Source: Saccharopolyspora gloriosae
Lineage (GTDB): Bacteria; Actinomycetota; Actinomycetes; Mycobacteriales; Pseudonocardiaceae
Length of the DNA: 64,000 bases
NCBI RefSeq assembly: GCF_014203325.1
Contig: NZ_JACHIV010000001.1
Span: 6,139,501 to 6,203,500 of the forward strand
Direction: 5' to 3'
The position numbers were made by a program, and so were the translations under genes. The notes beneath the pieces were generated by a model that was not told the origin of the DNA, ran no database searches, and saw nothing but the letters and a program-made list of their open reading frames with translations. How positions within the stretch are numbered: the stretch's first letter is position 1; every line of letters begins with the position of its first letter. Shown here piece after piece: positions 355-24,080 of this stretch.

Positions 355-715
355 ACCTGGGGTCGTTTTGCTCGGGTGGCCGGGTGGCGGAACCTCAGTC
401 GGTCTCTCGCTGCGGGATCTTTTTCCCAAGTGGCTCCGCCACGAGGGAAAAGCTGTCCTCGCGAGAGACCGACTGAGAACCCGCGGGTGGTCGGCTTCCT
501 GACGTGGGCTATTCGCTTCGCGAATACAGGCACGGCCTCCGGCCGCAACGCAGACTTCGCTTCGCTCGCCCAAGGCACGGCTTCGCCGCTAGGCACGGCC
601 TACGGCCGCGAGGCAGGCGTGGCTTCGCCCGTCCAGAGCACGGCTCAGGTGGGGCTTCGTCCGCTCCAGCCGCACGGCTCGCTCGACACGGCCTTTGGCC
701 CGGGGTCTCCCGTGC
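355..715. repeat. Dispersed palindromic repeat, copy 1
   Basis: This fills the gene-free gap between the DUF2520 gene and the 3' end of the PrsW gene. The core is a nested hairpin: perfect 17-bp arms at 394-410 and 461-477 (CTCAGTCGGTCTCTCGC and its complement), an inner T-run/A-run stem (420-427 with 445-451), and an apical 5-bp stem GTGGC-TCC-GCCAC at 430-442. A second small hairpin ATTCGC-TTC-GCGAAT follows near 510-525. After it comes an array of short units beginning GGCACGGC, each forming a small GC hairpin, running to about 700. Three further copies occur in this window. No coding function is seen. Confidence 0.85.
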
Positions 716-718
716 TGG

Positions 719-2269
719 CTACTGCCTCGGGGGGTGGGGTGGGGGGTTCTGGCGGTTCGGAGGTTGTTGCGGGGGGCGGCGCGAGGTGGGCTGGCCCGGT
801 TGCTGGGGTGCCTGGTTGGGGTTCGGTTGAGGTGGGCGGTGTCCCGGGGCGGGGCGGGGCTGTTGCTGCTGCGGGGACTGCCGGGGGGTGGGCTGGCGCC
901 GCTGGTCGGGCTGGGGGGCGAGGTCCGGGCGGGAGGACTCCGCGCGAGCCGCCTGCGGGCGCTCGGGCTGGGGCTGGGCGCTCTGCGGCTCGACGGGGCG
1001 CTGCGGGCGGGAACCGGGGCGGCGAACGCTCTGCGTCAGCTCGTGGATCTTCACCCGCGCCGTCTGGAACGCCTCCTGCGACCCCACCGCCGAACGACGG
1101 GCCGCCTTCAACTCCTCGATCAGCTGCTCCCGACGCGCTCGCCGCACCGCGCTCGTCGTGCGCCCCTCCGCGGCCCGGTGCTGCAGGAACGCCAGCTCCG
1201 TCACCGCGATCTGGTAGTCCCGCACGGCCTTCGCCGGCTCCGGCCCCGCGCTCTGGCGCACCTTGCGCAACCAGCCCTGGCGGCCCGCCAGCGACGCCAG
1301 CATCTCCACCTCGCTGCGCGGGATCAGCCCGGCGCGCTGCAGCACCGGGAGCTGGTCGGCGACGATGCGCTGCTCGCGCTTGCGCTGCCAGACCACCAGC
1401 CAGCCGGTGCCCGCGAAGATCGGCAGCATGATCAGGAAGTACACGTTGAGGAAGCCCGTGCCGCCCAGCAGCGTCGACGCGTTCCACGCGGCGTGCAGCA
1501 CCACGGCCAGCACGAACCCCGCCGCCGGCCACAGCAGGCGCTTCGTCGTGTCCGTCGTCCGCGAAGCCAGCCCGATCCCGATGCCGACCATCGAAGTGAA
1601 CAGCGGATGCGAGAACGGCGCCAAGATCCCGCGCAGGATGAACACCGCGACGACCCCGCCGGTGGCGCTGCCCCAGCCGCCCTCCGAGAAGGCCTTGCCG
1701 AAGTACAGGATGTTCTCGGTGAACGCGAAACCCGCCGCCGTCAAGCCCGCGTAGACGATGCCGTCGACGAGGCCGTTGAACTCCGACCGCCGCCAGAACC
1801 ACAGCGACACCACGAACAGCGCCTTCGCGGCCTCCTCCACCAGCGGCGCCATCACGGCCCGCTCGAAGAAGACGTGCTCGCTGGGCCCGAACAGCAGCTC
1901 GCCCAACCCGATCACCGACCCGTTGAGCAGCAGCGAACAGCCGGTCGCCCCGCCCGCGCCCCACAAGAACGCGCCGAGCATCAACATCGGCGGCTCCGGT
2001 TCCCAACGGTCGATCCACACGATCGCGGCGAACACCACGCCGACCGGGATCAGCGCCGCCAGCGCGCCCACCAGCGCGGGCAGCACCCCCACCCTGGAGG
2101 TCGCGACACCCACCATGACCAGGCCGATGACGCCGAGCAGCAGCAGCCCGGCCACCGGCCAGCCGACCGCGGAGTGCTTGCGGGTCTGCAACCTGCGCGC
2201 GCCGGAGAGGTCGGGCACAGGACCGGGGAGATCAGGTGTGGACACGCCCGAAACCCTAGAACGCGACAC
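719..2269 (-). CDS. PrsW-family intramembrane metalloprotease
   Basis: The 516-residue protein has about eight hydrophobic segments in its first 280 residues and the PrsW signature: EEAAK (Glu145-Glu146), FTEN (Glu185-Asn186) and a histidine in a following segment (His221, PFSHPL). These are the metal-binding and catalytic residues of this membrane protease family, whose best-known member cleaves the RsiW anti-sigma factor. After the membrane region comes a helical stretch (about 300-400) and then a Pro/Gln-rich tail of about 110 residues that is probably disordered and cytosolic. The substrate here is unknown; no anti-sigma gene is adjacent. It ends facing repeat copy 1 and starts 42 bp from the next gene on the same strand, so cotranscription is likely. 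Confidence 0.85.
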   Translation of the reverse strand: MSRSRVSGVSTPDLPGPVPDLSGARRLQTRKHSAVGWPVAGLLLLGVIGLVMVGVATSRVGVLPALVGALAALIPVGVVFAAIVWIDRWEPEPPMLMLGAFLWGAGGATGCSLLLNGSVIGLGELLFGPSEHVFFERAVMAPLVEEAAKALFVVSLWFWRRSEFNGLVDGIVYAGLTAAGFAFTENILYFGKAFSEGGWGSATGGVVAVFILRGILAPFSHPLFTSMVGIGIGLASRTTDTTKRLLWPAAGFVLAVVLHAAWNASTLLGGTGFLNVYFLIMLPIFAGTGWLVVWQRKREQRIVADQLPVLQRAGLIPRSEVEMLASLAGRQGWLRKVRQSAGPEPAKAVRDYQIAVTELAFLQHRAAEGRTTSAVRRARREQLIEELKAARRSAVGSQEAFQTARVKIHELTQSVRRPGSRPQRPVEPQSAQPQPERPQAARAESSRPDLAPQPDQRRQPTPRQSPQQQQPRPAPGHRPPQPNPNQAPQQPGQPTSRRPPQQPPNRQNPPPHPPRQ

Positions 2270-2311
2270 TTCGCCCCCACACCGCCTGGGGCAGGATCCG
2301 CTCCCCGCGGC

Positions 2312-3412
2312 TCAGCCGCGGCGGCGGCGACGGCGCTTCGACTCGGGCGGCGCCCCGGAATCGCCGTAGGCGGCGAGCAGGTCCACGACCGACGTGCCCT
2401 CGGTGTGCGCGCCCGCCTCGACCTGCCGGGTCGGGGTGCGGCGCTCCGAATCGTCGGACGCCTCCGGCTCGGGCCGCTGCGGGGCGGCCTGCTGAGCGGG
2501 CTGCGGCGCCGCGGAATCCGGCACCGCCGGCGGCCGGGCGACCTGGGGCTGCTCCGGGCGAGGCTGCTCCGGCGGCGGAGGCCCGGCAGGCGCCGGGTGC
2601 GCCACGGGGGCCGCCTGCTCCGGCTGGACCGGACGCAATCTGTCCGAAGTGGACTCCGGCCACGCGCCCTGCGTCCCCGACTGCGCCGGGCGCTGCTTGC
2701 GCGCCTCGGCCGCCTGCCGCGGAGCGGGCCTTCCCTGCTGCGGCCGGGACTTGCGCGGTTTCGACGGGCGCGGCGGCTGCTCCACCGGAGCCCGGTGCGG
2801 CGGCTGCTCGTGCGGCTCCGGATGCTCGACCTGCCCCTGGTAACCGGCCGGCAACTGCCTGCCACGCCCCTCCGGGTGCTGGATGATCCGCGGCTGCGCG
2901 CCCGTGTCACCGGAGGCGAACCGCGGCTGCTCACCCGTCGCGGGACGCTCCGGCAACGAACGCACCCGAGTGGACTCCGCCCGCAGCGCGACGCGCTCGA
3001 ACAGCACATCCCCGCCGAGCATCTTCTCCAAGTTCTCCCGCAGCGCCCGCAATTCCGCCTTCAACGCCTGGATCTCGGCGTCCGACTCCGCCGCGGCCGT
3101 GCGACGCGCCTCCGCCTCCGCCGTCGCCTCGAACTCGCGGCGAGCGGCGATCTCCCGCTCCAACTCGATCTCGTAGACCCGCTGGCGCTCCGCCTCCCGC
3201 TCAGCGGCCTCCGACGCCTTCCCCCGCAACTTCGCGACGCCGAACGCGCCCAGCAACGCGGCCCACAACGCGGCCACCAGCCCCAGCTTGAGCACGCGGG
3301 AATCGTTGCTCAGCACCAGGATCGCGGTCGCGGCGGCGGCGAGGACCAAGGCGCCGACCCACAACACCGACGGACGCTGGTCAGCGGCTGCGGAACGGCC
3401 GGGGGCAGGCAT
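2312..3412 (-). CDS. DUF6779-like membrane protein with coiled coil and Pro-rich tail
   Basis: This 366-residue protein has two N-terminal membrane segments (about residues 16-34 and 40-60), then a highly charged Ala/Glu/Arg coiled coil (about 65-130) and a long Pro/Gln/Ala-rich tail that is probably disordered. The N-terminal pattern, with a SNDSRVLKLGLVAALWAALLGAFG-like second segment (quoted in part), resembles actinobacterial DUF6779 proteins, which lie in the folK-panC neighbourhood, as in M. tuberculosis Rv3604c. Function is not known. A transmembrane anchor plus coiled coil suggests a scaffold or envelope role, but that is inference only. Repeat copy 2 lies directly upstream of its start. 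Confidence 0.7.
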   Translation of the reverse strand: MPAPGRSAAADQRPSVLWVGALVLAAAATAILVLSNDSRVLKLGLVAALWAALLGAFGVAKLRGKASEAAEREAERQRVYEIELEREIAARREFEATAEAEARRTAAAESDAEIQALKAELRALRENLEKMLGGDVLFERVALRAESTRVRSLPERPATGEQPRFASGDTGAQPRIIQHPEGRGRQLPAGYQGQVEHPEPHEQPPHRAPVEQPPRPSKPRKSRPQQGRPAPRQAAEARKQRPAQSGTQGAWPESTSDRLRPVQPEQAAPVAHPAPAGPPPPEQPRPEQPQVARPPAVPDSAAPQPAQQAAPQRPEPEASDDSERRTPTRQVEAGAHTEGTSVVDLLAAYGDSGAPPESKRRRRRRG

Positions 3413-3454
3413 GCCCCCACGGTACCCGGCCTTTACCGGATCGAGATCCGCAGG

Positions 3455-3850
3455 ATGGTTGGGCTCCTTTTGCTCTGGTGGTCGGGTGGCGGAACCTCAG
3501 TGCCTTCCTCGCTGCGGGATCTTTTTCCCTAGTGGCTCCACCACGAGGGAAAAAGCTGTCCTCGCGAGGAAGGCACTGAGAACCCGCGGGTGGTCGGCTT
3601 TTCGACGTGGGCTATGTGCTTCGCACATACAGGCACGGCCTTTCGGCCGCGAGGCAGGCGTGGCTCTCGCCCGCCCACTGCACGGCTTCGCCGCGAAGCA
3701 CGGCCTTTCGGCCGTAATGCAGGCTTTGCTTCGCCGCCTGAGGCAGGGCTTCGCCGCACGGCGCGGCCTTTGGTCGCGAGGCTGGCGTGGCTTGCTCGCT
3801 CTACTGCACGGCTTCGGCGCGAGGCGGGGGCTTGGTTCCGGTGCTCGGGG
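3455..3850. repeat. Dispersed palindromic repeat, copy 2
   Basis: This lies in the gene-free stretch 3413-3891. Perfect 17-bp arms are at 3496-3512 and 3564-3580 (CTCAGTGCCTTCCTCGC and its complement). The inner stem TTTTTCCCT/AGGGAAAAA is intact and the apical stem is GTGG-CTCCA-CCAC. The second hairpin reads ATGTGC-TTC-GCACAT (about 3614-3628). The tail contains at least eight short units of the GGCACGGCC / GCACGGCTTCGCCGC type. Compared with copy 1 the stem bases differ but pairing is retained on both sides. Confidence 0.88.
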
Positions 3851-3891
3851 TTGGGGCGGTGGAGGTCGTTGTTCGCTTCGTGGGCGAAGGG

Positions 3892-4356
3892 TCAGTCTTC
3901 GTCTTCGTAGGGGTCTTCCGGGTCGTCGGGATTGCGGAGGCAGTGTTCTAGCCAGAGGCCTGCTGCGATCAGGGCGGCCGCGCTGATCAGGCCTATCAGG
4001 GAGGCGGTCATGTCTTCGCGGGCGGCCTGGACCGAGTCCTGGAGCGGGAGCAGGTGGCCGAGCAGGCCTGTCCACACGCCGCACATGATCGCGCCGGCCA
4101 TCGAGGACGCCTTCGCCAAGGCGACGGCGCGGGCCGCGGGCAGCGCGTCGACCGGTTCCGTGCCGGGCTTGCGCTGGATGCGGGGGCGCAAGGTCAGCGC
4201 CAGCACCACGTCGACCACCGCGATCAGCAGCAGCGTCGCGCCCGCGGGCGCGGGCAACCGGGGCAGCGCGCCGTAGGCCGACCGGGCACCGACGTACGCC
4301 AAGGCCGCCGCGATCAAGGCGGCCACGACCAACTGCCGCGCCTGCGTGAACGTCAT
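3892..4356 (-). CDS. DUF3180 membrane protein
   Basis: This protein of about 154 residues has four predicted membrane segments, in two pairs, and an acidic tail (DPEDPYEDED). It matches the actinobacterial DUF3180 family, which is encoded next to folK (M. tuberculosis Rv3605c context); no biochemical role is established. The ATG at 4354-4356, giving MTFTQARQL, was chosen because it is preceded by an AGGA-like ribosome site and because family members start at the first hydrophobic helix; a longer reading to 4422 adds a non-conserved leader. Here a MerR gene separates it from folK. Confidence 0.75.
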   Translation of the reverse strand: MTFTQARQLVVAALIAAALAYVGARSAYGALPRLPAPAGATLLLIAVVDVVLALTLRPRIQRKPGTEPVDALPAARAVALAKASSMAGAIMCGVWTGLLGHLLPLQDSVQAAREDMTASLIGLISAAALIAAGLWLEHCLRNPDDPEDPYEDED

Positions 4357-4450
4357 CCGATCCTGCTGCCGAGGTGCCACGATTCCAGCATCGCACTTCG
4401 CGGGAACCGGACGGCAAGGCACCGGCCGACGATCCGCTCGCGAAAAGGAC

Positions 4451-4488
4451 TTGAGTCTCCCCCGACTGGAAGGCCGAAGGTCTCACTC
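4451..4488 (+). promoter_or_regulatory. Putative MerR-type promoter/operator, leaderless
   Basis: A TTGAGT -35 element (4451-4456) is followed by exactly 19 nt and a weak GAAGGT -10 (4476-4481), with the GTG start 7 nt later. A long 19-nt spacer carrying a dyad (AGTC at 4454-4457, GACT at 4464-4467) is the hallmark of promoters untwisted by MerR proteins. This suggests autoregulation and a leaderless transcript. It is read by eye; the -10 is poor. Confidence 0.5.
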
Positions 4489-5436
4489 GTGGACGACACG
4501 CAGCGCTACACGATCGGAGAGCTCTCCCGGCGCACCGGGCTGAGCGTGAAGACCATCCGGTTCTACTCCGACAGCGGCGTCGTGCCGCCCACCGACCGCA
4601 CGCACTCCGGGTACCGGCTCTACGACGTGACAGCGATGGCGCGGCTGGAACTGGTGCGCACCTTGCGCGAGCTCGGAGCCGGGCTCGACGAAGTGCGCCG
4701 AGTCCTCGCCGAGGAGACCACGGTGCGGCGGCTCGCCGAAGCGCAACTGGACCTGCTGGAGGACCAGATGCGGTTGCTGCGAACCCGCCGCGCGGTGCTG
4801 CGGGCGGTCGTGCACCTGAACCGATCGACCGAAGAGGTGAAACTCATGCACAAGCTGGCGACCATGTCCGACGCGGAGCGCAACCGGATCATCGACGACT
4901 TCTGGGACGAGACCATCGGCGGGCTGGAGGTGAACGAGCAGTTCGCCGCTTGGATGCGGTCCGCGAAACCGGAGCTGCCGGACGACCCGAGCACCGAACA
5001 GGTCGAGGCGTGGATCGAACTCGCCGAACTCGTCGGCAACCCGGACTTCCGCGCCACGGTGCGGCGGCTGTGGGAGCAGCAGGCCGCGCAGCAGGGGGGC
5101 GGGGACGCCACCCCGGTGCAGACGAAGGAGGAGGCCGCGCGCTGGTGGACGCTGTTCGAAGACGTCGAGCGGGCCGAGGAGGCCGGGCACTCCCCGGATT
5201 CCGAGCGCGGCCGTGAACTGGCCGAGCACGCCGCCGAGCTCTGGGCGCGCCAGCAGGGCGCGACCGACGGTCCGGCCGCGCGCGCCGAGCTCGCGGACAG
5301 CTTCGGCGCGCCTTACGACGAGCGGCTGTCCCGGTACTGGGAACTGCTGGCGATCATCAACGAGTGGCCGCCGCACCCCACCACCGAACGGCAGGCGCAC
5401 TGGCTCGCCGACGCCGTCCGCGCCACCCTGCCCTGA
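4489..5436 (+). CDS. MerR-family transcriptional regulator
   Basis: The N-terminal 75 residues are a clear MerR DNA-binding domain: YTIGELSRRTGLSVKTIRFYSDSG, quoted only in part as TIGELSRRTGLS and KTIRFYS, then GYRLYD and a dimerisation helix (about 85-120). The C-terminal 190 residues are mostly helical and acidic and lack the cysteine clusters of metal sensors, so the effector is probably organic or unknown. The GTG at 4489 was chosen because the domain starts there and the spacing from the putative promoter suits a leaderless mRNA. It is convergent with folK, with a strong terminator between them. Its insertion between DUF3180 and folK looks like a lineage-specific addition. Confidence 0.85.
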   Translation: MDDTQRYTIGELSRRTGLSVKTIRFYSDSGVVPPTDRTHSGYRLYDVTAMARLELVRTLRELGAGLDEVRRVLAEETTVRRLAEAQLDLLEDQMRLLRTRRAVLRAVVHLNRSTEEVKLMHKLATMSDAERNRIIDDFWDETIGGLEVNEQFAAWMRSAKPELPDDPSTEQVEAWIELAELVGNPDFRATVRRLWEQQAAQQGGGDATPVQTKEEAARWWTLFEDVERAEEAGHSPDSERGRELAEHAAELWARQQGATDGPAARAELADSFGAPYDERLSRYWELLAIINEWPPHPTTERQAHWLADAVRATLP

Positions 5437-5510
5437 TCGCGGCAGGGAACACGGCACCGATCCGGCTCGGGCGGAGCGGATTCCTGGGGGTGTCCGCGCC
5501 GGCCGGGCCG

Positions 5511-5546
5511 AACGGCCCGCTCGACCGACCGGTCGAGCGGGCCGTT
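5511..5546. terminator. Bidirectional hairpin between MerR gene and folK
   Basis: A perfect 16-bp inverted repeat with a GACC loop lies between the convergent MerR and folK genes. It has no T-run, as is usual for strong stems in high-G+C actinobacteria. Confidence 0.75.
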
Positions 5547-5554
5547 GCGCCGGT

Positions 5555-6049
5555 TCAACTCAGGCGCAGGTCGTCTCGCCGGTGCACGGCGTCCAATTCC
5601 GCGGCGGGCAACGCCCGGACCAAGTCGCCCACCGGGCCGTGGCCCGGCAGCACCGCGTCAGGGTCCACCACCGACCACGGGATCAGCACCGTCGCCCGCG
5701 CGGGCGTGCCGGGATGCGGCAGCAGCAGCTCCGGGTCCTCGCTGCGCACGCCGTCCACGGTGACCACGTCCACGTCGAGCGTGCGCGGCCCCCAGCGGAG
5801 CTCCCGCACCCGCTCCGCCGCGCGCTCCAGCTCCTGGCCGCGGCGCAACCAGCCCCACTCGTCCACGTCGGCGGACGCCACGACCAGCACCGCGTTGAGG
5901 AAGTCCGGCTGGTCGGTGACGCCCCACGGCGCCGTCTCGTAGACCGGGGAGACCGCCACGACCGCGTCGCCGAACCCGTCCACCGCGGACCGCAAGTGCG
6001 CCAGCCGGTCGCCCAGGTTCGACCCCAGCGACAGCACCGCCCTGCTCAT
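5555..6049 (-). CDS. folK: 2-amino-4-hydroxy-6-hydroxymethyldihydropteridine pyrophosphokinase
   Basis: The 164-residue protein is HPPK, which transfers pyrophosphate from ATP to 6-hydroxymethyl-dihydropterin before condensation with pABA. It shows SLGSNLGDR at the N-terminus (residues 7-15) and the family signature RWGPRTLDVDVV (about 85-96), with the Mg-binding aspartates. The ATG at 6047-6049 follows the folB stop by 8 nt. It is the last gene of the folE-folP-folB-folK operon. Upstream extension of the frame is antisense or out-of-frame folB sequence and was ignored. Confidence 0.95.
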   Translation of the reverse strand: MSRAVLSLGSNLGDRLAHLRSAVDGFGDAVVAVSPVYETAPWGVTDQPDFLNAVLVVASADVDEWGWLRRGQELERAAERVRELRWGPRTLDVDVVTVDGVRSEDPELLLPHPGTPARATVLIPWSVVDPDAVLPGHGPVGDLVRALPAAELDAVHRRDDLRLS

Positions 6050-6057
6050 CGGCGCGC

Positions 6058-6435
6058 TCAGCCGTTCCGCGCCGCGCGCCGGGACCGGCGCATGGTGACC
6101 GCGACGTCCGCGAAGGTCAGCGGGATCGGCGCGGACGGCTTGTGGATCGTGACCTCGGCGGCGTGGGCGCGCTGATCGGTCATGATGCCGTCGGCGATCT
6201 CCGCGGCCACCGTCTCGATCAGGTCCCGCGACGGCCCGCTCACGACGTCCGCCGCGCGCTGGGCCAGCTCGCCGTAGTGCAGCGTCTGCGCCAAGTCGTC
6301 GTCGGCCGCCGCACCGGCCAGGTCCACCCACACCGTGATGTCGACCAGGAACTCCTGGCCGTCGCGCTTCTCGTGCTCGAACACGCCGTGGTTGCCGCGC
6401 ACCCGCAACCCGGTCAACGTGATCCGGTCAGCCAA
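6058..6435 (-). CDS. folB: Dihydroneopterin aldolase
   Basis: This 125-residue protein (DHNA; folX in some naming) converts 7,8-dihydroneopterin to 6-hydroxymethyl-dihydropterin and glycolaldehyde. The sequence shows the family pattern [19 protein letters not shown] at the start, the tunnel Glu region, and the C-terminal Lys-Pro turn IHKPSAPIP. The start appears to be a TTG (6433-6435), placed by a GGAGGG ribosome site 5 nt upstream and by homologue length. The TTG overlaps the folP stop by 8 nt, so translation is probably coupled. Confidence 0.93.
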
Positions 6436-7273
6436 CGGTCCCTCCGGTGTTCCACGCCGCGGTCACCGCGACCGCGTCCAGCGAACTGCGCACGTCGTGC
6501 ACCCGCACCGCCCACGCGCCGCGGTCCGCGGCCAGCGCCGAGACCACCGCCGTCGCCGTCTCCCGGCCCGCCGGGGCGCGCGGAGTGCCGTCGCCGTCGG
6601 CCAGCAACCTGCCGAGGAACCGCTTCCGCGAGGCGCCCACCAGCACCGGGAAGCCCAATCCGACGAACTCGCCCAGCCGGTTCAGCAGCGCCCAGTCGTG
6701 CTCCCCGGTCTTCGCGAAGCCCAAGCCCGGATCGAGCACGATCGCGTCCTCCCGGACGCCCGCCCGCAACGCCGCGTCGACCTGGGCCAGCAGCTCCGAG
6801 CGCACGTCGGCGACCACGTCGCCGTACTCGGCCAGCGAATTCATGTCGCGGCTGTGGCCGCGCCAGTGCATCAGCACCCACGGCAGCCCGGTGTCCGCGG
6901 CGACCCGCGCCATGTCCGGATCGGCCAGCCCGCCGGACACGTCGTTGATCACCGAGGCGCCCGCTCCGGCGGTGGCCGCGGCGACCTCGGCGCGGGTGGT
7001 GTCCACGCTGACCGGCACCCCGCAATCGACCAGCTCCGCCACCACCGGCAGCACCCGCTCGATCTCGATCTCGGCCAGCACCCGGTCCGCGCCCGGCCGC
7101 GTCGACTCACCGCCCACGTCGATGATGTCCGCACCCGCCTCGAACATCTCGACGCCGTGCGCCACCGCGGCCTTGCGGTCCAGGTAGCGGCCACCGTCGG
7201 AGAACGAATCGGGCGTCACGTTCAGCACGCCCATCACCGCGCACCGGCCGGGCCGGGGAAGCAGCACGCTCAT
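6428..7273 (-). CDS. folP: Dihydropteroate synthase
   Basis: The 281-residue TIM-barrel enzyme condenses 6-hydroxymethyl-dihydropterin pyrophosphate with pABA and is the sulfonamide target. Visible signatures are [15 protein letters not shown] (about 14-28), [23 protein letters not shown] and GASRKRF. The ATG at 7271-7273 shares one base with the folE TGA (TGATG), which indicates translational coupling. No sign of a second, FolP2-like divergence is seen. Confidence 0.95.
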
Positions 7274-7911
7274 CACGAACCCCTGATCAACGACAACGCC
7301 TCGGCTCGGGACGAGGCGGAGCTGCGGAAGATACCGCGCACCGCGGAGGTCGTCGTGGTCGAACCCGCCTTGCGCACCCCGCGCATGCCCATGCACAGGT
7401 GCTCGGCGTCCACCACGACGATCACGCCGCGCGGCTCCAGCTTCCGCGCCAGGGCATCGGCGACCTGCGAAGTCAGCCGCTCCTGGACCTGCGGGCGCTT
7501 GGCGTAGAGGTCCACCAGCCGCGCCAGCTTCGACAGGCCGGTGACCCGGCCCTTCTCGTTCGGGATGTAGCCGATGTGCGCCACGCCGTGGAACGGCAGC
7601 AGGTGGTGCTCGCACTGGGAGTACATCGGGATGTCGCGGACCAGCACCAGCTCTTCGTGCGCCTCGTCGAAGGTGCGGTCGAGCACCTCGTCCGGGTCGG
7701 TGTAGAGCCCGGCGAACAGCTCCTGGTAGGCGCGGGCCACCCGGGCGGGCGTGTCCCGCAAGCCCTCCCGGTCCGGGTCCTCCCCCGCCGCGAGCAGCAG
7801 TTCGCGGACCGCCGCCGCCGCTCGTTCCTGGTCGAAAGCCGGTCGATCGAAACCGGTATCACCCGGCCGGGACTCGTCCCGTCCGGACTGCTCACCGAGA
7901 TTGCTGATCAC
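7273..7911 (-). CDS. folE: GTP cyclohydrolase I
   Basis: The protein of 212 residues opens the GTP ring to give dihydroneopterin triphosphate, the first step of folate synthesis. The zinc and active-site segment [12 protein letters not shown], the [10 protein letters not shown] segment, and the EHLCMGMRG motif are all present. The GTG at 7909-7911 was chosen because GGAGGA lies 7 nt upstream. It is the first gene of the folate operon and is separated from ftsH by a strong hairpin, though read-through from ftsH, as in related genomes, is possible. Confidence 0.95.
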
Positions 7912-7939
7912 GTGTCGCTCCTCCACCGGCTCACACCGA

Positions 7940-7984
7940 ACCGAGAAAGGGCACCGTCGACGTGCGACGGTGCCCCTTCTCGGT
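7940..7984 (-). terminator. Hairpin between ftsH and folE
   Basis: A 20-bp inverted repeat with one mismatch and a 5-nt loop lies 24 bp after the ftsH stop. It probably ends or attenuates ftsH transcription before folE. Confidence 0.7.
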
Positions 7985-8008
7985 CTTGTCGCTCTCGGCG
8001 CGAGGCGG

Positions 8009-10510: not shown

Positions 10511-10726
10511 TCACTTGCGGCCGGCGGTCGGCCTCGACCCTCCCTGACTTCACTTCGGGCAACGGCACCGGTGAACGGCGCACGAACCGTCGCCGCCGTC
10601 AACCCCCTCGGACCAGCGTACCGGCCGCCGCGAGCGCGCCACCACGCCGAGCGTTGTGCAGGTCGACAAGCCTACCCCCGAACGGAACCGGACCTTTCCC
10701 ACACCTGCTCCCAGCAGGCGCGCTCC

Positions 10727-11284: not shown

Positions 11285-11318
11285 GGACCGGCTTCCCCTC
11301 TCGCTGTTGGGTGCACGT

Positions 11319-12344: not shown

Positions 12345-12417
12345 CGCCCCATTGTGGTCCCCGGCGGACGCGCACCGGGCGCTCGGTCCGCCGCTCGCCC
12401 CGAAGCGGAGCGGGCTT

Positions 12418-13524: not shown

Positions 13525-13582
13525 GAAACCGACCGTACTCCGGGTGAGCTGGGCCGCGACACCGCTGCGGCGGCGCGTCCGG

Positions 13583-16500: not shown

Positions 16501-18754
16501 CCTCGACGCGATCGGCCGGGACCGCGGGCTGCGGGCCGGTGACTTCGGCGTCATCGAGGGCTTCCGGTGCTGCGCCGGTCCCATCGGCGGGAGCCTGCTC
16601 GGCGGGCTCAGCCACCGCGCTCTCGTCCGCAGCGGTCCCGAAGGTCGCGGTCCCGGAGGTCGCAGGCTCGGGTGCCGCGGTCTCAGAGGTCGCGATCTCA
16701 GGGGCTGGGGGCTCGGGTGCCGCGGTCCCGGACGCCGTGTCCTCGGTCTCGGGCGCCGCCGTCGCGGCGGACCCAGCGGCCGGAGTCTCGGCGGGCGTGG
16801 TCCCGGTCGACGTGGTCTGGGCGGCCGTGGTCTCGGTCGACGTGGTCTCGGTCGACGTGGTCCCGGTCGACGTGGTCCCGGTCGACGTGGTCTGGGCGGC
16901 CGTGGTCTCGGTCGCGGTGGTCTCTGGCCAGGCGCCCGCGCCGATCCAGCTCGGTCGGCCGGAGCCGCCGGGCCGCTCCGAATCGCCCTGGTCCGGCTCC
17001 TGCTCCGCCGCTTCCGGTGCGGGTGGCTCGTCCTGCGCGGCCGTCTCCGGCCGGGACGAGTCGTCGCCGACCTCCGACGAGGCCGCCGGTCGCTGATCAT
17101 CGTGCGTCCGCCCGGGTTCCTGCTGGCCGGCGGAGCTCGCGTCCTCCGAGTCGCCGGTGGGCGCGGGCTCGTCCGAGTCCGTCGTCGACTCGGCTTCCGC
17201 CTCGGCGGGACGCTCCGCCTGCGCCGGTGCACCGGTCGCGTCGGTTCGGGTGCCGTCCTGGGCGGAGGCCTGGTCCTCCCCGGCGTCCGAGCCGGTGGTG
17301 GACGAGGTGTCGTCCGGGCCGGTCGTGCCCGAGTCCGCCGCGGTGGATGCCGCGCTCCCCGATTCCGAAGTCCCGGAGTCGGCAGCGGTCGCGTCCGAGG
17401 ACTCCGCCTTCGAAGTCCCGTCCTCCCCAGCCGTCGAGTCCGCGTTCTCCGGCTCACCGGCAGCGGAATCGGACTTCTCGGATGCGGAGGAATCGGTGGC
17501 AGCGGCGTCGGAGGTCTCCGATTCGTCCTTCGAACCCCCGGTGCCCTGCCCTGCCGAATCCCGGGTCTCCGCGGTCTCCGCGCCCGAGATCATTCCCGTG
17601 ACCCGGGACCCCGTGGTCTGCCAGCCGGAGAAGTCGTGCGCGGCGGCCTGCCGCCCGGCGTTCGGCTCGACCGAGCCGACGAAGCCCACCGCTCGGGCCA
17701 CCGGCGCGGTGCCCGGCGTGCTCGGCGCGTCCTCGTCGAGGGTGCCGCGCACCGTCGACCCGCTGCTCATCGCCGCAGCCGTGTCCGAGCTCGCGTCCGA
17801 CGAGTCGTCGCGCTGCTCGGCCACGCTCGACGAGCCCTGCTCAGCGGATTCCCCACCTGACGCGGCGTCCTCGTCCTGCGCCCGCGCGGCGCCCTCGGCC
17901 GCCACCGAGTACGCAGGCCGTCCGTCCGGCTCCGCGGAACCGCCCTCGGTCGTGCTCTCATCCGGCCGTTCCTCGGGCTCGGCGTCACCGCTGCCGACCG
18001 CACCCGCGGCCCCAGCCTCCGAATCGCCCTCGGCCTGGTCGTCGTCCGGAGTCGCGGAACGACTCGTCCCGGACTCGGCCGCGGAACCACCGGCCGTCGA
18101 TCCGCCGGAACCGGCACCGCTCGCACCGGAATCGCCGGGCGAACCGGCCCGCTCGACACCAACGGGCTCGGCTTCCTCAGCGCCGGAACCACCGTCCCCG
18201 GATCCAGCCGCCCCGGTCTCAGCATCCCCAGCTCGCGATTCGTCCGCGGAATTCGACGGTTCCACCGCGGTCTCGTCGGCCTGCTTCGAAGACGACCGCC
18301 CGGAATCCCGATCGCCGTCCGCCCGATCGGCCTTCTCGTCCTGGTCGATCCGGACCGTGCCCGTGATCGAGGCCCGCGCGGACGCCTTCTCGGTGTTCCC
18401 GCCGGTCGACGTGGTCTCGGCACCGGACGCTTCAGTGTTCACCGGCTGTTCATCGCCGGAAGAGGCCGACTCGTTCCGCTCGCCCCCGGCGGAAGCACCC
18501 GCCGCCTCAGCGGTCGTCCCCTGGTCCTCCACCGGAAAGCCGGGATCGTCGCCCGCGGACTCCTCCGCCTGGTGCTCCGTCGGCCAAGGCTGCTCATCAG
18601 CACGCGCGCGATCCCGCTCGGGATGCTCGGCGTCCGCGCTCCGCCCCTGCTCATCGCCCTGCGAACCCGCCGTTGAGGCGGCCGCTTCCGTGGCGGGCTG
18701 CTCGGTGGCGTCGGGCTCGGACACCTCACCCCTGAGGCTGTGGGGTTCGGGCAC
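13583..18754 (-). CDS. dacB: D-alanyl-D-alanine carboxypeptidase (S13/PBP4) with giant disordered N-terminus
   Basis: The predicted protein has 1,723 residues. The last 430 form a complete S13 penicillin-binding domain: STGK with catalytic Ser1372 and Lys1375, SDN at about 1552-1554, and KTG at about 1669-1671. One membrane helix (about 1269-1295) precedes it. Everything before the helix is low-complexity, rich in Thr, Ser, Glu, Asp, Ala and Pro, with tandem TTST/TETT-like units and four RRDVDD-like units (18-nt DNA repeats near 15940-16020). Topology suggests the long tail is cytosolic and the enzyme external. Usual family length is about 450-550 residues. A GTG at 18752-18754 with GGAGGAA upstream supports one continuous gene; no stop or frameshift interrupts it. 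It is divergent from ppa. Confidence 0.9.
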
Positions 18755-19051
18755 GGGCTTCCTCCTCGACGGTTCGCAAGACTGCCAGATGCGAGCTGCC
18801 GCACTGCGGTGGGGCTCGGCGCGCGGCCGTGGTCCACACTAGACGTGGTCGTGCCGCATCACGGGCGGCCACTCCGACGTGTGAGCCTGCCGCTCGACCT
18901 CGGGTGACGCCGTGCGGTGAACGACGAAATCATCGCAGGTCAGGACACTGACGATGTACGGGACCGGGATGCGGGACCGGCCTGGCAACGGCGGCCGGAC
19001 GGTCGGGCACAGTCTCGACGAGCAAGCTGGCGAGAACGAGTGAGGAACCGC
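18755..19051. other. Divergent dacB-ppa intergenic region
   Basis: This gap of about 300 bp holds the promoters of both genes. An in-frame extension of ppa into it is possible but not supported, because homologues begin at the GTG at 19052. No repeat or RNA gene is recognised. Confidence 0.5.
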
Positions 19052-19540
19052 GTGGACTTCGACGTCACCATCGAGATCCCCAAGGGGAACCGGAACAAGT
19101 ACGAGGTGGACCACAAATCCGGCCGGATCCGGCTGGACCGGACGTTGTTCACCGCCACCCAGTACCCCGCCGACTACGGCTTCGTCGAGGACACCCTCGG
19201 CGAAGACGGCGACCCGCTGGACGCCCTGGTGCTGGTGCAGGAGCCCACCTTCCCGGGATGCCTGATCACCGCGCGCGCGGTCGGCATGTTCCGGATGCGC
19301 GACGAGAAGGGCGGCGACGACAAGGTCATCTGCGTCCCGTCGGACGACCCGCGCCAGGAGCACCTGCGCGACATCCACCACCTGGCGGAGTTCTACCGCC
19401 TGGAGATCCAGCACTTCTTCGAGGTGTACAAGGACCTGGAGCCCGGCAAGAGCGTCGAAGGCGCCACCTGGGTCGGTCGCACCGAAGCCGAGGCGGAGAT
19501 CAAGCGCTCCTACGAACGAGCCAAGGAACAGGGCCACTGA
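19052..19540 (+). CDS. ppa: Inorganic pyrophosphatase
   Basis: The 162-residue type I enzyme hydrolyses pyrophosphate to phosphate and pulls biosynthetic reactions forward. It begins [20 protein letters not shown] (quoted to 20 residues), contains the metal-binding DYGFVEDT and GDPLDALVL segments (the GDPxD motif), and matches the usual actinobacterial length exactly. The GTG at 19052 follows AGGA by 6 nt; an in-frame GTG at 19040 is less likely. The membrane pyrophosphatase hppA is also encoded in this window. Confidence 0.95.
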
Positions 19541-19569
19541 GACCCGGATCTTCCTTGGAACGGCCTGCT

Positions 19570-19745
19570 TAGCGGGTCGCTCAGCGGAACCTCAGCGGCT
19601 TCCTCGCTGCGGGATCTTTTTTCCAAGTGGCTCCGCCACGAGGAAAAAAGCTGTCCTCGCGAGGAACCCGCTGAGAACCCGCCGGTGGTCGGCTTGCTCT
19701 AGCCGGTCACTGCTCAGCGGCTTCGCCGCTGACAGGACGAGGATC
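19570..19745. repeat. Dispersed palindromic repeat, copy 3
   Basis: Arms CTCAGCGGCTTCCTCGC (19591-19607) and its near-complement (19659-19675, one mismatch) enclose a CTTTTTTCC/GGAAAAAAG stem and the GTGGC-TCC-GCCAC apex. The second hairpin TCAGCGGC-TTC-GCCGCTGA lies at about 19713-19731. The tail array seen in copies 1 and 2 is absent. It sits between the convergent ppa and IclR genes. Confidence 0.85.
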
Positions 19746-19757
19746 AGAAGATTGCAC

Positions 19758-19790
19758 CGAAGGCCCTTCCCGGATCGGGGAGGGCCTTCG
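19758..19790. terminator. Terminator between ppa and IclR gene
   Basis: CGAAGGCCCT and its exact complement (19781-19790) form a stem extended by C/G pairs, 8 bp from the IclR stop codon. It probably serves both converging transcripts. Confidence 0.7.
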
Positions 19791-19798
19791 TCGTGGGG

Positions 19799-20557
19799 TC
19801 AGCGGGGTTGGTGGCCGAGGGCGGTGGAGACGTCCATGGCGGCGGCGCGGACTCGGTCGCCGAACTCGCGCAACCGGGTCATGTCGTGCTCCAGGGCGAG
19901 CGTCGAGACGCTTACTCCGCCGACGACGGCACCGGAGTGGTCGCGCACGCAGGCGCCGGTGCAGCGCACGCCGAGCTCGTTCTCCCCGTCGTCGAGCGCG
20001 TACCCGGCGGCCCGGACCTCGTCGAGCTGCGCGTGCAGCTCGCGCTGGGTGGTCAGCGAGTTCGCGGTGCGCGCGGGCAGGTCACCGGCACCGATGAGCT
20101 CCCCGACGGCGTCGGCGGGCAGTTCCGCCAGCACCGCTTTGCCGATGGCGCTGGTGTGCCACGGCAAGTGCATGCCGATCCGCGAGCCCATCCGGTACGG
20201 CTTGTCCGGCTCGACCTTGTGCACGTACAGCAGCTCACCGCCGAAACGCATCGCGAAGTGCACGGTGCAGCCGGTGTCGTCGCGCAGCCGCACCAGCGCC
20301 GGATCGGCCTGCGCGGCCGGATCGAAGCGGTAGAGCACCTTTCCCGCCAGCGCGAGCACCCGGTCCCCGGTGCGGTAGCCGGTGTCGTCGCTGTGCGCGA
20401 AACCGGTCTCCACCAGCACCTGCAGCAGCCGGTGCACGGTCGACTTGGGCAGGCCGGTGGCGGCGGCGAGCTCGGTGACGCGGCCGTGGTCGGCGAGCGC
20501 TTCGAGCACGCGCAGCGCCTTGCGGACCGCGCCCGGCCCTTCGGTGGTGCTGGTCAC
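19799..20557 (-). CDS. IclR-family transcriptional regulator (probable kdu regulator)
   Basis: The 252-residue protein has an N-terminal winged helix-turn-helix (VTELAAATGLPKSTVHRLL, about 27-45) and the C-terminal IclR effector domain (about 80-250, with SAIGKAVLAELP and the terminal GVSVSTL strand). The GTG start overlaps the kduD stop by four bases (GTGA), so it is translated with kduD and kduI. IclR proteins such as KdgR respond to uronate breakdown products; control of this operon and of the divergent permease is the likely role, by inference from context. Confidence 0.88.
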   Translation of the reverse strand: MTSTTEGPGAVRKALRVLEALADHGRVTELAAATGLPKSTVHRLLQVLVETGFAHSDDTGYRTGDRVLALAGKVLYRFDPAAQADPALVRLRDDTGCTVHFAMRFGGELLYVHKVEPDKPYRMGSRIGMHLPWHTSAIGKAVLAELPADAVGELIGAGDLPARTANSLTTQRELHAQLDEVRAAGYALDDGENELGVRCTGACVRDHSGAVVGGVSVSTLALEHDMTRLREFGDRVRAAAMDVSTALGHQPR

Positions 20558-21312
20558 CGGGCCATCCAACCACCGTCGACGACGAGGACGTGCCCGTTGA
20601 CGTAGTTCGACGCGTCCGAGGCCAGGAACACCGCGGCCCCGGTGAGGTCGTCCGGTTCGCCCCAGCGCCCGGCGGGGATGCGTCCGCGCAGCTCCGGCTC
20701 GCGCTGCTCGTCGGCCTGCAGCACGGCGGTCTGATCGGTCCGGATGTAGCCGGGCGCGATGGCGTTGACCTGCACCCCGCTCGACGCCCACTCGTTGGCG
20801 AGCGCCTTGGTGAGCCCGGTGACCGCGTGCTTGGCCGCCGCGTACGCGGGCACCCGGACGCCGCCTTGGAACGACAGCAGCGAAGCGATGTTGATGATCT
20901 TCCCGTGCCCGCGGGCCAGCATCCGCTCCCCGGCGAGCCTGCTGAGCAGGAACACCGCGTCGAGGTCCACGTCGAGCACTCGCCGCCAATCCGCGTAGGA
21001 CACCTCGGCGGCGGGTTCCCGGTGGATGATCCCGGCGTTGTTGACCAGCACGTCGACCTGCCGCTCGGCGAACGCCGCGCGCAGCCGCTGCTCGGCCGCC
21101 GCCGGGTCCGCGAGGTCGACGCCGACGGCCTCGGCCTCGGCACCGCGCCGGCGCACCTGCTCGGTCACCTCGTCGAGCGTGCCCTCGCGCCCCAGCAGGA
21201 CCAGACCGGCACCGGCTCCGGCGAGTCCTAGGGCGATCGCCCGGCCGATCCCGGTGCGCGCACCCGTGACGAGCGCGGTCCGCCCGCGCAGCGAGAACAG
21301 TTCAGCGCTCAT
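20554..21312 (-). CDS. kduD: 2-dehydro-3-deoxy-D-gluconate 5-dehydrogenase-like SDR
   Basis: This 252-residue classical short-chain dehydrogenase has TGARTGIG (16-23), NNAG (91-94), and the catalytic Ser144, Tyr157 and Lys161. It is placed with kduI in the pathway that converts 4-deoxy-L-threo-5-hexosulose-uronate to 2-keto-3-deoxygluconate. KduD identity rests on the neighbour and overall resemblance; SDR substrate calls from sequence alone are weak. The kinase (kdgK) and aldolase for the next steps are not in the window. Confidence 0.82.
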   Translation of the reverse strand: MSAELFSLRGRTALVTGARTGIGRAIALGLAGAGAGLVLLGREGTLDEVTEQVRRRGAEAEAVGVDLADPAAAEQRLRAAFAERQVDVLVNNAGIIHREPAAEVSYADWRRVLDVDLDAVFLLSRLAGERMLARGHGKIINIASLLSFQGGVRVPAYAAAKHAVTGLTKALANEWASSGVQVNAIAPGYIRTDQTAVLQADEQREPELRGRIPAGRWGEPDDLTGAAVFLASDASNYVNGHVLVVDGGWMAR

Positions 21313-21320
21313 GCCCACCC

Positions 21321-22142
21321 CTACCGCAGTTCCGCGACGGCCACGTGGTCCATGTCGTCGAACGACTGGTTCTCCCCGGCCATCGCCCACACGAAACCGT
21401 ACCGGTGCGTACCGGCTCCACTGTGGACGGACCAGCTGGGCGAGATCACCGCCTGCTCGTCGCCCACCACCAGGTGCCGGGTCTCGCCGGGCTCGCCCAG
21501 CAGGTGCAGCACCCGGTGCTCGGCGGGCAGGTCGAAGTACAGGTAGCACTCGGTGCGCCGGTCGTGGGTGTGGGCGGGCATGGTGTTCCAGACGCTGCCC
21601 TCGGCGAGTTCGGTGACGCCCATGACCAGCTGGTCCGAGGCGATTCCCGCCGGGTGCACGTACTTGCGCAGCTCGCGCACGTTCGCGGTGACCTGCGCGC
21701 CGAGCCGCGCGGGTTCGGTGTCGGCGTGCCGCGCGACCCGCGTCGGATGCGCCGCGTGCGCGGGAGCGGAGACCAGGTAGAACCGCGTGCCGTCGCCGCG
21801 GAACGCCACCTCGCGGGTGCCTGCTCCGACGTACAGGCAGTCGCGGTGCTCCAGGCGGTGCTCGGTGCCGTCGGCGATGACGGTGCCCGGCCCGCCGAGC
21901 GCGATCACGCCGAGTTCGCGGCGCTCGCAGAAGAACTCGCCGCGCAGCGCGGGTTCCGCGGTCAGCTCCAGCACCTGCCCCGGCCCGGGAACGGCACCGC
22001 CGAGCACCACCCGGTCCTGGTGCGAGTGCACGGTGCGGATCTCGCCGGGCGCGAACAGGTCGGGCACCAGGTAGTGGGCGCGCAGCGCGTCGGTGTCGAA
22101 GCCGGGCACCTGGTCGGGGTGCGTGGCGTGCCGGTTCTCCAT
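21321..22142 (-). CDS. kduI: 5-dehydro-4-deoxy-D-glucuronate isomerase
   Basis: The 273-residue cupin isomerises 5-keto-4-deoxyuronate to 2,5-diketo-3-deoxygluconate in pectin or glycosaminoglycan breakdown. The zinc ligands line up with E. coli KduI at a constant offset of five: His191, His193, Glu198 (PAHTHDRRTECYLYFDL) and His240. The C-terminal GFVWAMAGENQ segment is also typical. It is first in the kduI-kduD-iclR operon and is divergent from the permease gene. Confidence 0.93.
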   Translation of the reverse strand: MENRHATHPDQVPGFDTDALRAHYLVPDLFAPGEIRTVHSHQDRVVLGGAVPGPGQVLELTAEPALRGEFFCERRELGVIALGGPGTVIADGTEHRLEHRDCLYVGAGTREVAFRGDGTRFYLVSAPAHAAHPTRVARHADTEPARLGAQVTANVRELRKYVHPAGIASDQLVMGVTELAEGSVWNTMPAHTHDRRTECYLYFDLPAEHRVLHLLGEPGETRHLVVGDEQAVISPSWSVHSGAGTHRYGFVWAMAGENQSFDDMDHVAVAELR

Positions 22143-22248
22143 GCGGAGCCTCCTCGTTCAGGACCGGGCGGACCGGCCGTTCGCCGGGAATTGGGCCGGG
22201 CGGCCGATAGCCAGTCGACGGTGATCGGGGTCACCATGGCCGTCACCG

Positions 22249-22296
22249 AATATGGAACCCCGTTCTGCTTTTCGGAACAACCCGCCGTTCGGCGGG
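22249..22296. promoter_or_regulatory. Putative IclR operator and leader hairpin upstream of permease
   Basis: GAAC-CCC-GTTC (22255-22265) followed by CGGAAC (22274-22279) has the GAAC/GTTC dyad style of IclR-family operators. A CCCGCC-GTTC-GGCGGG hairpin (22281-22296) lies just before the permease ribosome site. Assigning the operator to the neighbouring IclR protein is inference. Confidence 0.35.
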
Positions 22297-22311
22297 TCTG
22301 TGGAGGTCACC

Positions 22312-23997
22312 GTGCCGCCCTACCACCAGAGCCCCGATCCCACCGGCTCCCTGCTGCTGTCCGCGCTGCTCGCGCTGCTGCCCCTGGTCACGCTGCTGTT
22401 CCTGCTCGGCGGACTGCGTTGGAAAGCGCACTGGGCCGGGCTGGCGACCCTCGGCGTGGCGCTCGTCGTCGCCGTCGCGGGCTACGACATGCCACCGCTG
22501 CTCGCGCTCGACGCCGGGCTGTACGGCATGGCGCAGAGCCTGCTGCTCATCCTCTGGCTCACCTTCAACGCCATCTGGATCTACAACCTGACCGTGCACA
22601 GTGGACACTTCGCGGTGCTGCGCCGGGCGTTCGGCACGCTCGGCGAGGACATCCGGGTGCAGTCCATCGTCATCGCCTTCTGCTTCGGCGCACTGCTCGA
22701 AGCGCTCGCCGGCGGCGGCGGACCGGTCGCGATCTGCGCGGTCATGCTCATCGCGCTCGGCGTCTCCCCGCTCAAGGCCGCCGCGCTGGCGCTGGTCGCC
22801 GACACCGCGCCCGTCGCGTTCGGCGGCATGGGCAACCCGATCACCGTGCTCGGCGAGGTCACCGGCCTGCCCGCCGCGGAATTCGGCGCGGTCGCCGGGC
22901 GCCAGGTATCGGTGCTCGCCGTCGTCGTCCCGTTCGTGCTGCTGCTCGTCGCCGACGGGCGCCGCGGCGTGCGGCAGGCGTGGCCCGCCGCGCTGGTCGG
23001 CGGGATCTCGTTCGCCGCAGCGCAATTCCTCACCTCGAACTACCTGTCGTACCAGCTCGCGGACATCGTGGCGGCGATCGTGTCCGCCGGTGCGATCCTG
23101 CTGCTGCTCCGGGTGTGGCGCCCCGGCGAACCGGTCACGGCGGCGCTGCTCCCCGACGACCGGGACGCAGACGCGTCCGGCGCTCCGGCGCCCACCGAAC
23201 CCGCGGCGCTCACCACGACCGCCCGCCCGCAGGCCGAAACGTCCGCGCCCGCAACGGATTCCCGCGCCGAAACGCTGCGCGCCTTCGCCCCCTACGCGAT
23301 CATCGTGCTGGTCTTCGCGCTCGCGCAGTTCGACTCCGTGAAAGCACCGCTGAAAACGCTGACCTGGAGCTTCGACTGGCCCGGTCTCACCGTGCTCACG
23401 GCCGCCGGCACTCCCGTGGACACCGAGTACGAGTTCGCCATCGGCTCCGCCACCGGGACCCTGCTCCTGCTGTCCGGCCTGCTGGCGCTGCCGTTCCTGC
23501 GGGTGCGCCCGAAGGACGCCGTGCTCGTCTACGGCCGGACGCTGCGGCAGTTCGGCTGGGCCATCCTCGCGATCCTCGCCGTGTTCGCGCTGTCCTACGT
23601 GATGAACCTGTCCGGGCAGATCACCACGCTCGGCGTCTGGCTCGCGGGCACCGGGGCGTTCTTCGCGTTCCTCTCGCCCGTCGTGGGCTGGTTCGGCGTC
23701 ACCATCACCGGCACCGACGCGGGTGCGAACGCGCTGTTCGGCGGCCTGCAGACCACCGCCGCCCAGCAGATCGGCGCGGACCCGGTGCTGCTGGGCGCGG
23801 CGAACTCCTCCGGCGGCGTGATGGCGAAGATGATCTCGCCGCAGAACCTGGCGATCGGCACCGCGGCGGTGGGACTGGTCGGACGCGAAGGCGAGCTGTT
23901 CCGCCGCGTCTTCGGCTGGAGCCTCCTGCTCCTGCTCCTCATGTGCACCCTGGTCTACCTGCAGTCGACCCCGGTACTGAGCTGGATGCTCCCTTGA
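22312..23997 (+). CDS. L-lactate permease (LctP)-family transporter
   Basis: This is a 561-residue integral membrane protein with 12 or more hydrophobic segments. It contains the LctP-family stretch GALLEALAGGGGPVAI, GGMGNPITVLG and the C-terminal SPVVGWFGVTITGTDAGAN region, in which glycine-rich re-entrant segments bind small hydroxycarboxylates. A GTG at 22312 was chosen because GGAGGT lies 4 nt upstream; a longer frame from 22252 lacks a site. Being divergent from kduI, it may import an acidic sugar derivative or lactate; the true substrate is open. Confidence 0.82.
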   Translation: MPPYHQSPDPTGSLLLSALLALLPLVTLLFLLGGLRWKAHWAGLATLGVALVVAVAGYDMPPLLALDAGLYGMAQSLLLILWLTFNAIWIYNLTVHSGHFAVLRRAFGTLGEDIRVQSIVIAFCFGALLEALAGGGGPVAICAVMLIALGVSPLKAAALALVADTAPVAFGGMGNPITVLGEVTGLPAAEFGAVAGRQVSVLAVVVPFVLLLVADGRRGVRQAWPAALVGGISFAAAQFLTSNYLSYQLADIVAAIVSAGAILLLLRVWRPGEPVTAALLPDDRDADASGAPAPTEPAALTTTARPQAETSAPATDSRAETLRAFAPYAIIVLVFALAQFDSVKAPLKTLTWSFDWPGLTVLTAAGTPVDTEYEFAIGSATGTLLLLSGLLALPFLRVRPKDAVLVYGRTLRQFGWAILAILAVFALSYVMNLSGQITTLGVWLAGTGAFFAFLSPVVGWFGVTITGTDAGANALFGGLQTTAAQQIGADPVLLGAANSSGGVMAKMISPQNLAIGTAAVGLVGREGELFRRVFGWSLLLLLLMCTLVYLQSTPVLSWMLP

Positions 23998-24028
23998 GCG
24001 CCTGCCCTTGATCTCGACCTGCGCAGGG

Positions 24029-24080
24029 GGCGGGTGGCGGGTTCTCAGTGGCTTCGCCGCTGACAAGACAACGACAAATA
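24029..24080. repeat. Dispersed repeat, partial copy 4
   Basis: GCGGGTTCTCAG here is the exact complement of the outer right border of the other copies, and it is followed by the second-hairpin module TCAGTGGC-TTC-GCCGCTGA and ACAAGAC. The long three-tier hairpin is missing, so this is a solo or deleted copy. Confidence 0.65.

Follow-up and report, generated by a model that had tools for sequence, protein, structure and literature searches.

A hairpin of 98-99 nucleotides (nt), embedded in a larger element, occurs in three full copies within a 64,000-nt stretch of the Saccharopolyspora gloriosae genome (contig NZ_JACHIV010000001.1, positions 6,139,501 to 6,203,500; hereafter the window) and in about 410 full copies in the genome as a whole, as extrapolated from 100 in 1.664 Mb. 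We consider it fairly probable that the element, whose core this very stable hairpin forms, is a small, dispersed palindrome that is mobile but non-autonomous and works like a REPIN or a miniature inverted-repeat transposable element (MITE). A preliminary description of the window had proposed either selection on a folded DNA or RNA or a palindromic element that copies itself. This proposal is partly supported: the stems covary, so that structure is kept while sequence changes, and orthologous sites that are filled in one genome and empty in another show that the element moves or is lost between species, whereas host selection on every single copy is not needed, because the mismatch rates fit neutral decay (see below). 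A trans-acting enzyme could recognise the folded single strand via its fixed feet and loops, so that only copies with paired stems would spread, and the folded strand is probably the substrate of such a putative enzyme. Each insertion would be born paired and then decay at an approximately neutral rate, copies could exchange hairpins with other copies by conversion, and pairing would be enforced in the lineages that spread.

Copy number and distribution

The three hairpins and their shared frame were borne out as first reported, and the family is far larger: the window's own genome (one contig, 6.83 Mb; G000 below) contains the exact left half-frame 305 times and the exact right half-frame 299 times, against none for a reversed-pattern control. 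A first-look search of G000 returned 407 candidates, 40 of which were scored and gave 76 matches, the palindrome often matching on both strands. In the window plus 80 fetched 20-kb stretches of G000 (together 1.664 Mb; the contiguous set), nhmmer identified 110 matches including the 100 full hairpins, and with them the further genomic copies that the preliminary description had proposed seeking.

Outside G000 (relatives used for comparison are labelled G002 to G005), the hairpin is present in all six genomes of the genus that were examined. A sample of 200 genomes from the bacterial family gave matches in 37, representing 12 of 46 genera, with four candidates scored per genome. Named genomes yielded at least 120 matching stretches, and the 80 listed include Saccharopolyspora (S. 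spinosa and S. hirsuta among them), Amycolatopsis, Halopolyspora and Saccharomonospora. Plasmid and phage records, in collections that may omit near records, gave no hairpin match at E 1e-5. The searched literature contained no paper describing this hairpin family, as judged from titles and the beginnings of abstracts, and the word Saccharopolyspora is absent from the main text of PMC10969869, PMC12306157, PMC3733652 and PMC2267715.

Anatomy of the hairpin and its carriers

From the outside inwards, the hairpin consists of a GCGG/CCGC foot, a 3x3 loop of AAC facing AAC, an outer stem made up of CTCAG, seven variable pairs and CTCGC, a near-invariant loop TGCGGGATC/GCTGTCC, a variable inner stem and a variable apical hairpin. 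The fixity of the feet is partly by choice, because alignment rows were picked for intact feet. Four-base feet read GGTG in 88 and GGTA in 60 of 189, then GCGG; GTAG occurs in about one third. Two carrier forms surround the hairpin in G000, with Form II accounting for 70 copies, Form I for 27 and others for 3 (n=100). In Form I the hairpin is followed by a second hairpin, which also changes on both sides, and then by a G+C-rich hairpin array; in Form II it is preceded by a left module of about 36-46 nt and followed by a right module with a small hairpin. The copies and parts found in the window are as follows, the hairpin coordinates including the GCGGAAC and AACCCGC feet.

341-357: small hairpin directly 5′ of the copy 1 left flank; a similar form is present in element-free G004
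360-386 (+): copy 1 left flank, Form I, GGGTCGTTTTGCTCGGGTGGCCGGGTG; from the Form I left-flank consensus of 27 copies and ortholog comparison
387-484 (+): copy 1 full hairpin, with foot GCGG/CCGC, AAC/AAC loop, outer arm CTCAGTCGGTCTCTCGC, loop TGCGGGATC/GCTGTCC, inner T/A stem and apical hairpin
510-526 (+): second Form I hairpin of copy 1, TATTCGC-TTC-GCGAATA (in other copies TATGTGC-TTC-GCACATA)
527-690, approximate limits (+): array of short G+C-rich hairpins 3′ of Form I copy 1
3455-3488 (+): copy 2 left flank, Form I; its start is the point where the element-free relatives G003 and G004 diverge
3489-3587 (+): copy 2 full hairpin, arm CTCAGTGCCTTCCTCGC
3613-3629 (+): second Form I hairpin of copy 2, TATGTGC-TTC-GCACATA
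19541-19583, left end approximate (+): copy 3 left module, Form II, behind the stop codon at 19538-19540
19584-19682 (+): copy 3 full hairpin, arm CTCAGCGGCTTCCTCGC with one C.C mismatch, inner stem TTTTTTCC/GGAAAAAA
19715-19731 (+): small 3′ hairpin of Form II, copy 3, CAGCGGC-TTC-GCCGCTG
19757-19793 (+): terminator-like hairpin 3′ of copy 3; similar in G002-G005, including the element-free G002 and G004 sites
23998-24074 (+): short derivative with a Form II-like left module, a GCGGGTTCTCAG foot at 24037-24048 and the small hairpin CAGTGGC-TTC-GCCGCTG; large hairpin absent

The short derivative near 24040, which is not a full copy, lies behind a called gene end at 23997 and has counterparts among the short elements described below. 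The arrays of short G+C-rich hairpins (GGCACGGCTTCGCCGC type) that accompany the Form I copies at window 527-690 and 3630-3830 vary between copies and species. Elsewhere in G000, at 5588861-5588974 and 5556751-5556864, an extra CCCCTGGCCGGTGTGGCAG block replaces GGGATC on the 5′ side of the inner loop, and similar blocks are present in other copies. On either side of the hairpin stand short direct repeats (CGGTGCG- or GTGGTCG-like) that agree with each other inside one copy more often than across copies, in 120 of 188 cases compared with 74 after shuffling (maximum 88), with clade structure left in. The window also contains an Rfam 6C RNA at 46849-46922 (-) and a tRNA gene at 25963-26036 (+).

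Pairing is kept while the arms change

The folds of all three window copies beat 200 of 200 dinucleotide shuffles, with z between -5.9 and -9.3 over both strands. Covariation was measured on an alignment of 70 copies (68 distinct sequences) from 11 genera, drawn from 92 listed references plus copy 1, less repeats, and comprising a single G000 representative of each arm pair, the loci fetched from foreign genomes and some of the loci from named genomes. Changes on both sides of a pair occupy 284 cells of this alignment, compared with 88.3 after shuffling and 28-74 in slid controls; 95.0% of cells pair, and the covariation score is 0.330 against 0.096 shuffled and 0.06-0.11 slid. When the structure was predicted afresh, two-sided changes were recovered in 14 of 29 pairs. 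Both the outer and the inner stem covary strongly, and the two internal loops are nearly fixed.

Pairing is also evident within G000. Among its listed half-frames (100 of the 305 left and 100 of the 299 right), 89 pair up and 11 of each do not, and the 89 pairs represent 28 arm types in which 95.3% of arm cells are complementary, compared with 51.3% after shuffling (maximum 60.4%). Over the seven variable pairs, 71 of these copies are fully complementary, 14 show a single mismatch and the other 4 show between two and five; two copies with five mismatches and one with three resemble a combination of two arm types. Of the 100 full copies in the contiguous set, 95 could be parsed; over 17 pairs, 67 of these match throughout, 17 contain a single mismatch and 11 contain between two and six. 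The report that the outer arms of the window copies differ and change on both sides, with one C.C mismatch in copy 3, was confirmed. The companion statement that the inner T/A stem changes length in step needs a small correction for copy 1, where five T face four A. Unpaired arm changes, which according to the preliminary description would defeat the structural-selection reading, do occur, in a minority of copies (28 of 95 with at least one mismatch over 17 pairs).

Presence and absence in relatives

Orthologous segments from G003, G004 and G005, and from G002 at one site, were compared by eye with the G000 copies. Of the 19 loci where an ortholog could be read, 15 are empty in one or more relatives, which supplies the empty sites that it had been proposed to look for. 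A relative carries a copy in reverse orientation at two loci (G003 at 5549071, G005 at 4190000) and in the same orientation at eight, two of them damaged (4157998 and 4185968); in all eight the arms differ from those of G000 as read by eye. At the locus of copy 3 (window 19584), the G003 copy has a different inner type, G005 retains a shrunken remnant, the element is missing from G004 and G002, and a similar terminator-like hairpin follows in all. Since that hairpin is also present at the element-free G002 and G004 sites, copy 3 can be placed between a stop codon and a terminator.

Position behind stop codons

Genes were called with a simple codon-usage caller written for this analysis. In the contiguous set, all 100 full copies lie outside called genes, and of the 98 whose two neighbours were both called, 92 border the 3′ end of one gene or more. 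Hence the initial claim that all copies lie in gaps at gene ends stands as a strong bias. Copy 2 has no sense gene directly upstream: the genes on its two sides are both on the minus strand, and the 3′ end of one of them is 304 nt away. No gene was called to the left of copy 1 within the window. The 98 copies comprise 37 in convergent gaps, 35 tandem sense, 20 tandem antisense and 6 divergent, and all called gaps of at least 20 nt, for comparison, comprise 181 convergent, 605 tandem and 226 divergent.

Of 72 sense copies, 57 have a stop codon 25-50 nt ahead of the hairpin (12 of 17 in Form I and 45 of 54 in Form II). Among 26 Form II copies in convergent gaps, 22 have the sense stop at a distance of 31-46 nt, and the opposite stop lies at 30-335 nt. 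A larger mixed set, which overlaps the contiguous set and from which 35 of 207 hits were dropped (in a gene or lacking a neighbour), places 95 of 139 hairpins 30-50 nt from a stop, with 1 of 207 hits in a called gene. Beyond the element, terminator-like stems of at least 12 base pairs (bp) were seen for 15 of the 46 Form II copies in sense orientation; the corresponding figures are 276 of 1187 for native 3′ ends and 59 of 887 for coding controls. Long stems of this kind lie between stop codon and hairpin in 2 of 46, in windows shorter than those beyond the element. Because it stands between stop codon and terminator, the element is probably transcribed as part of the 3′ untranslated region (UTR). 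Near G000 position 5588975, a TAG within the element appears to terminate the upstream gene, and the G003 ortholog of that gene ends at its own TGA. REP ends often provide a stop codon, according to PMC3733652.

The sense bias, the tight 25-50 nt spacing and the terminator-like stems beyond the element would also be consistent with a 3′ UTR RNA element that serves the host, being cotranscribed and protecting, cutting or terminating the mRNA, with selection keeping each copy paired. Such a role has a precedent in ERIC, which is reported in PMC2229807 to alter the stability of upstream transcripts. We nevertheless regard it as unlikely, since the sites are empty in close relatives, the Rfam covariance models return no family at gathering score on the window hairpins (at a lax threshold around copies 2 and 3, E is 0.08-0.9), and the arm mismatches fit neutral decay. 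Departures from consensus in G000 amount to 0.035 per site in the fixed frame and 0.031 per site in a 30-nt right module (68 copies). The seven variable pairs mismatch at 0.065 per pair, approximately twice the per-site rate, which is roughly the value expected if the two sides changed neutrally and independently of each other.

Persistence of the mismatched loops

Pairing could alternatively be maintained passively, if fold-back (template-switch) copying together with recombination between copies re-paired the arms in the absence of structural selection. Some observations favour this: two or three of the 89 listed copies resemble chimeras of different arms, all eight same-orientation copies in relatives have arms unlike those of G000, and in contiguous DNA the AAC/AAC loop has been converted to a perfect GTT/AAC palindrome in three copies (two in G000, one in G003) while being kept in 109. 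In the converted copies the left frame has become GCGGGTTCTCAG; they are L109 (G003, the ortholog of G000 5549071) and the copies at offsets 1558 and 67861 of the G000 block 3200001-3400000. However, passive upkeep should erase both AAC/AAC and the second internal loop, yet both nearly always persist across the 11 genera, in rows picked for intact feet; of 216 distinct hairpins, collected in part with the AAC/AAC motif itself, 215 retain this mismatched loop. This survival is evidence against purely passive fold-back correction, though conversion occurs, and we judge the passive explanation to be less likely again than a host-serving RNA.

Element ends and the search for a mover

A subset of Form II elements carries terminal repeats near GRGTCCTTTCAGAATGAYCT. 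A 17-nt pattern based on these gave 41 matches, and 30 loci fetched from the matches contain 18 inverted terminal-repeat pairs spaced 69-229 bp apart, five of them less than 100 bp apart and, where shown, lacking the big hairpin. Elements of 69-94 bp with the same terminal repeats and no big hairpin are present at G000 5928823, 3850594, 5207823 and 2443798, and could be either deletion products or a minimal mobile form. Direct repeats flank some of the pairs (e.g. CTCACAG, CTTCGG and CTCAG). A motif resembling YTNAR, the target of the IS701-like DDE_5 family (PF13546), is found at the register 3 nt outside the pairs, in five of the 18 left flanks and eight of the 18 right flanks, compared with a single occurrence across the other six registers.

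A number of points weigh against a mobile element. The target-duplication signal is marginal, a 5-bp direct repeat with at most one mismatch being found at the register 3 nt outside in 6 of 18 pairs and the best register equalling that in 12 of 300 shuffles, and terminal inverted repeats taken over all copies are not above controls (46 of 100, against 41 and 42). Sense bias alone is modest in G000 (tandem 35 vs 20, p=0.058), the larger and overlapping mixed set giving 65 to 26 (p=5e-5). The match to neutral decay is only approximate, because the rates include subfamily differences and chimeric copies. The REP transposase domain PF01797 was not detected in G000, G003, G004, G005, G018 or G019, and PF13546 gave one weak match in G000 and none in G001, G005, G018 and G019; PF13546 is also not associated with the element (24 of 37 carriers against 109 of 163 other genomes) and was rejected as the mover. 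There is no autonomous partner among the 41 terminal-repeat matches, and none at spacings up to 4 kb in the 1.664 Mb apart from one uninspected 2661-bp pair, a more diverged partner being possible. An excess of A.C over G.T mismatches, which would have indicated folding of the minus strand, appears in the mixed set (105 vs 16), with 20 vs 15 in the inner stem, 9 vs 6 in the contiguous set and 6 vs 10 among the listed half-frames; it was dropped because the own-genome sets disagree and because its 'genus' group also included L205-L244.

The sole wider terminal-repeat pairing, 3660418 to 3663861, connects separate elements, each with its own partner repeat no more than 217 bp away. No coding long form, with lone left and right half-frames 110-8000 nt apart, was found among the 100 of 305 and 100 of 299 listed half-frames, and a fuzzy search for lone half-frames was discarded because it matched chance sequence. 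The apparent all-plus orientation of the listed half-frames is an artefact of the listing and was given no weight. The 42 genes between close copy pairs look like ordinary host genes, as judged from their first 60 residues with no family search made.

A true REP/REPIN family, moved by a RAYT (TnpA_REP) Y1 transposase that has been lost or is now unrecognised in some carriers, would share with our element the conserved ends, covarying hairpin, high copy number and extragenic position of the REPIN description, and a GTAG or GTGG foot is present in most copies, with GTAG, one of the two REP foot tags (GTAG and CGTC), in about one third. The PF01797 domain is also somewhat commoner in carriers (13 of 37 genomes, against 29 of 163 others; Fisher p=0.026, uncorrected for kinship). 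However, PF01797 was not detected in 24 of 37 carriers, including the copy-rich G000, G003, G004 and G005, and the 98-99-nt hairpin lies in a larger element, a subset of which has terminal repeats. RAYT was therefore set aside as the mover and kept as a rival, albeit a very improbable one. Least probable of all is that the hairpin is recognised as RNA, with the two fixed loops of a 3′ UTR transcript binding a dedicated protein and the transcript serving as the route back into the genome; such a route would account for insertions in sense orientation right after stop codons.

Implications and comparison with known systems

The actinobacterial group to which the host belongs includes antibiotic producers. 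In this genome, approximately 400 copies of one folded element lie mostly behind genes, and close relatives differ in which genes carry them; if mobile, the element would be an unnoticed source of 3′ UTR change. The combination of near-fixed loops and freely covarying stems makes the hairpin a ready bait for a putative hairpin-recognising enzyme, and the spacing from the stop codon provides a testable case of target choice. Should the RNA route be true, a short mobile element would have moved through its own RNA with no known partner.

Small mobile repeats of bacteria have been catalogued, among them ERIC, which affects upstream transcripts (PMC2229807). Like ERIC/IRU, our element is a palindromic repeat with a long stem-loop, and ERIC is described in the same paper as co-transcribed and orientation-dependent. 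Unlike it, ERIC is enterobacterial, 127 bp long, and has a 7-bp terminal repeat and TA termini, although the two were set apart by description only. Bacterial MITEs (RUP, Correia/NEMIS and others) are similarly short, intergenic and present in many copies, and inverted terminal and short direct repeats are found in a subset of our elements; here, however, terminal repeats escape detection in most copies, constraint is strongest in the central hairpin, and no matching transposase was found.

REPINs provide a close likeness in structure, with conserved inverted ends, a variable middle that keeps its hairpin, and many extragenic copies. According to PMC3116915, their conserved ends flank a spacer in which compensatory changes are common, and they are proposed to move as a folded single strand. 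The present element differs from them in that PF01797 is undetected in the host, a single long hairpin contains two near-fixed internal loops, larger carrier modules lie on both sides, and the spacing from stop codons is tight. It thus resembles a REPIN or a MITE, but RAYT is undetected in its own genome and no autonomous partner was seen. The preliminary statement that no named family has this form was too strong, as REPINs share the conserved ends and covarying hairpin; because they already show compensatory arm changes (PMC3116915), we regard the element as a variant of the REPIN/MITE-like kind and not as wholly new.

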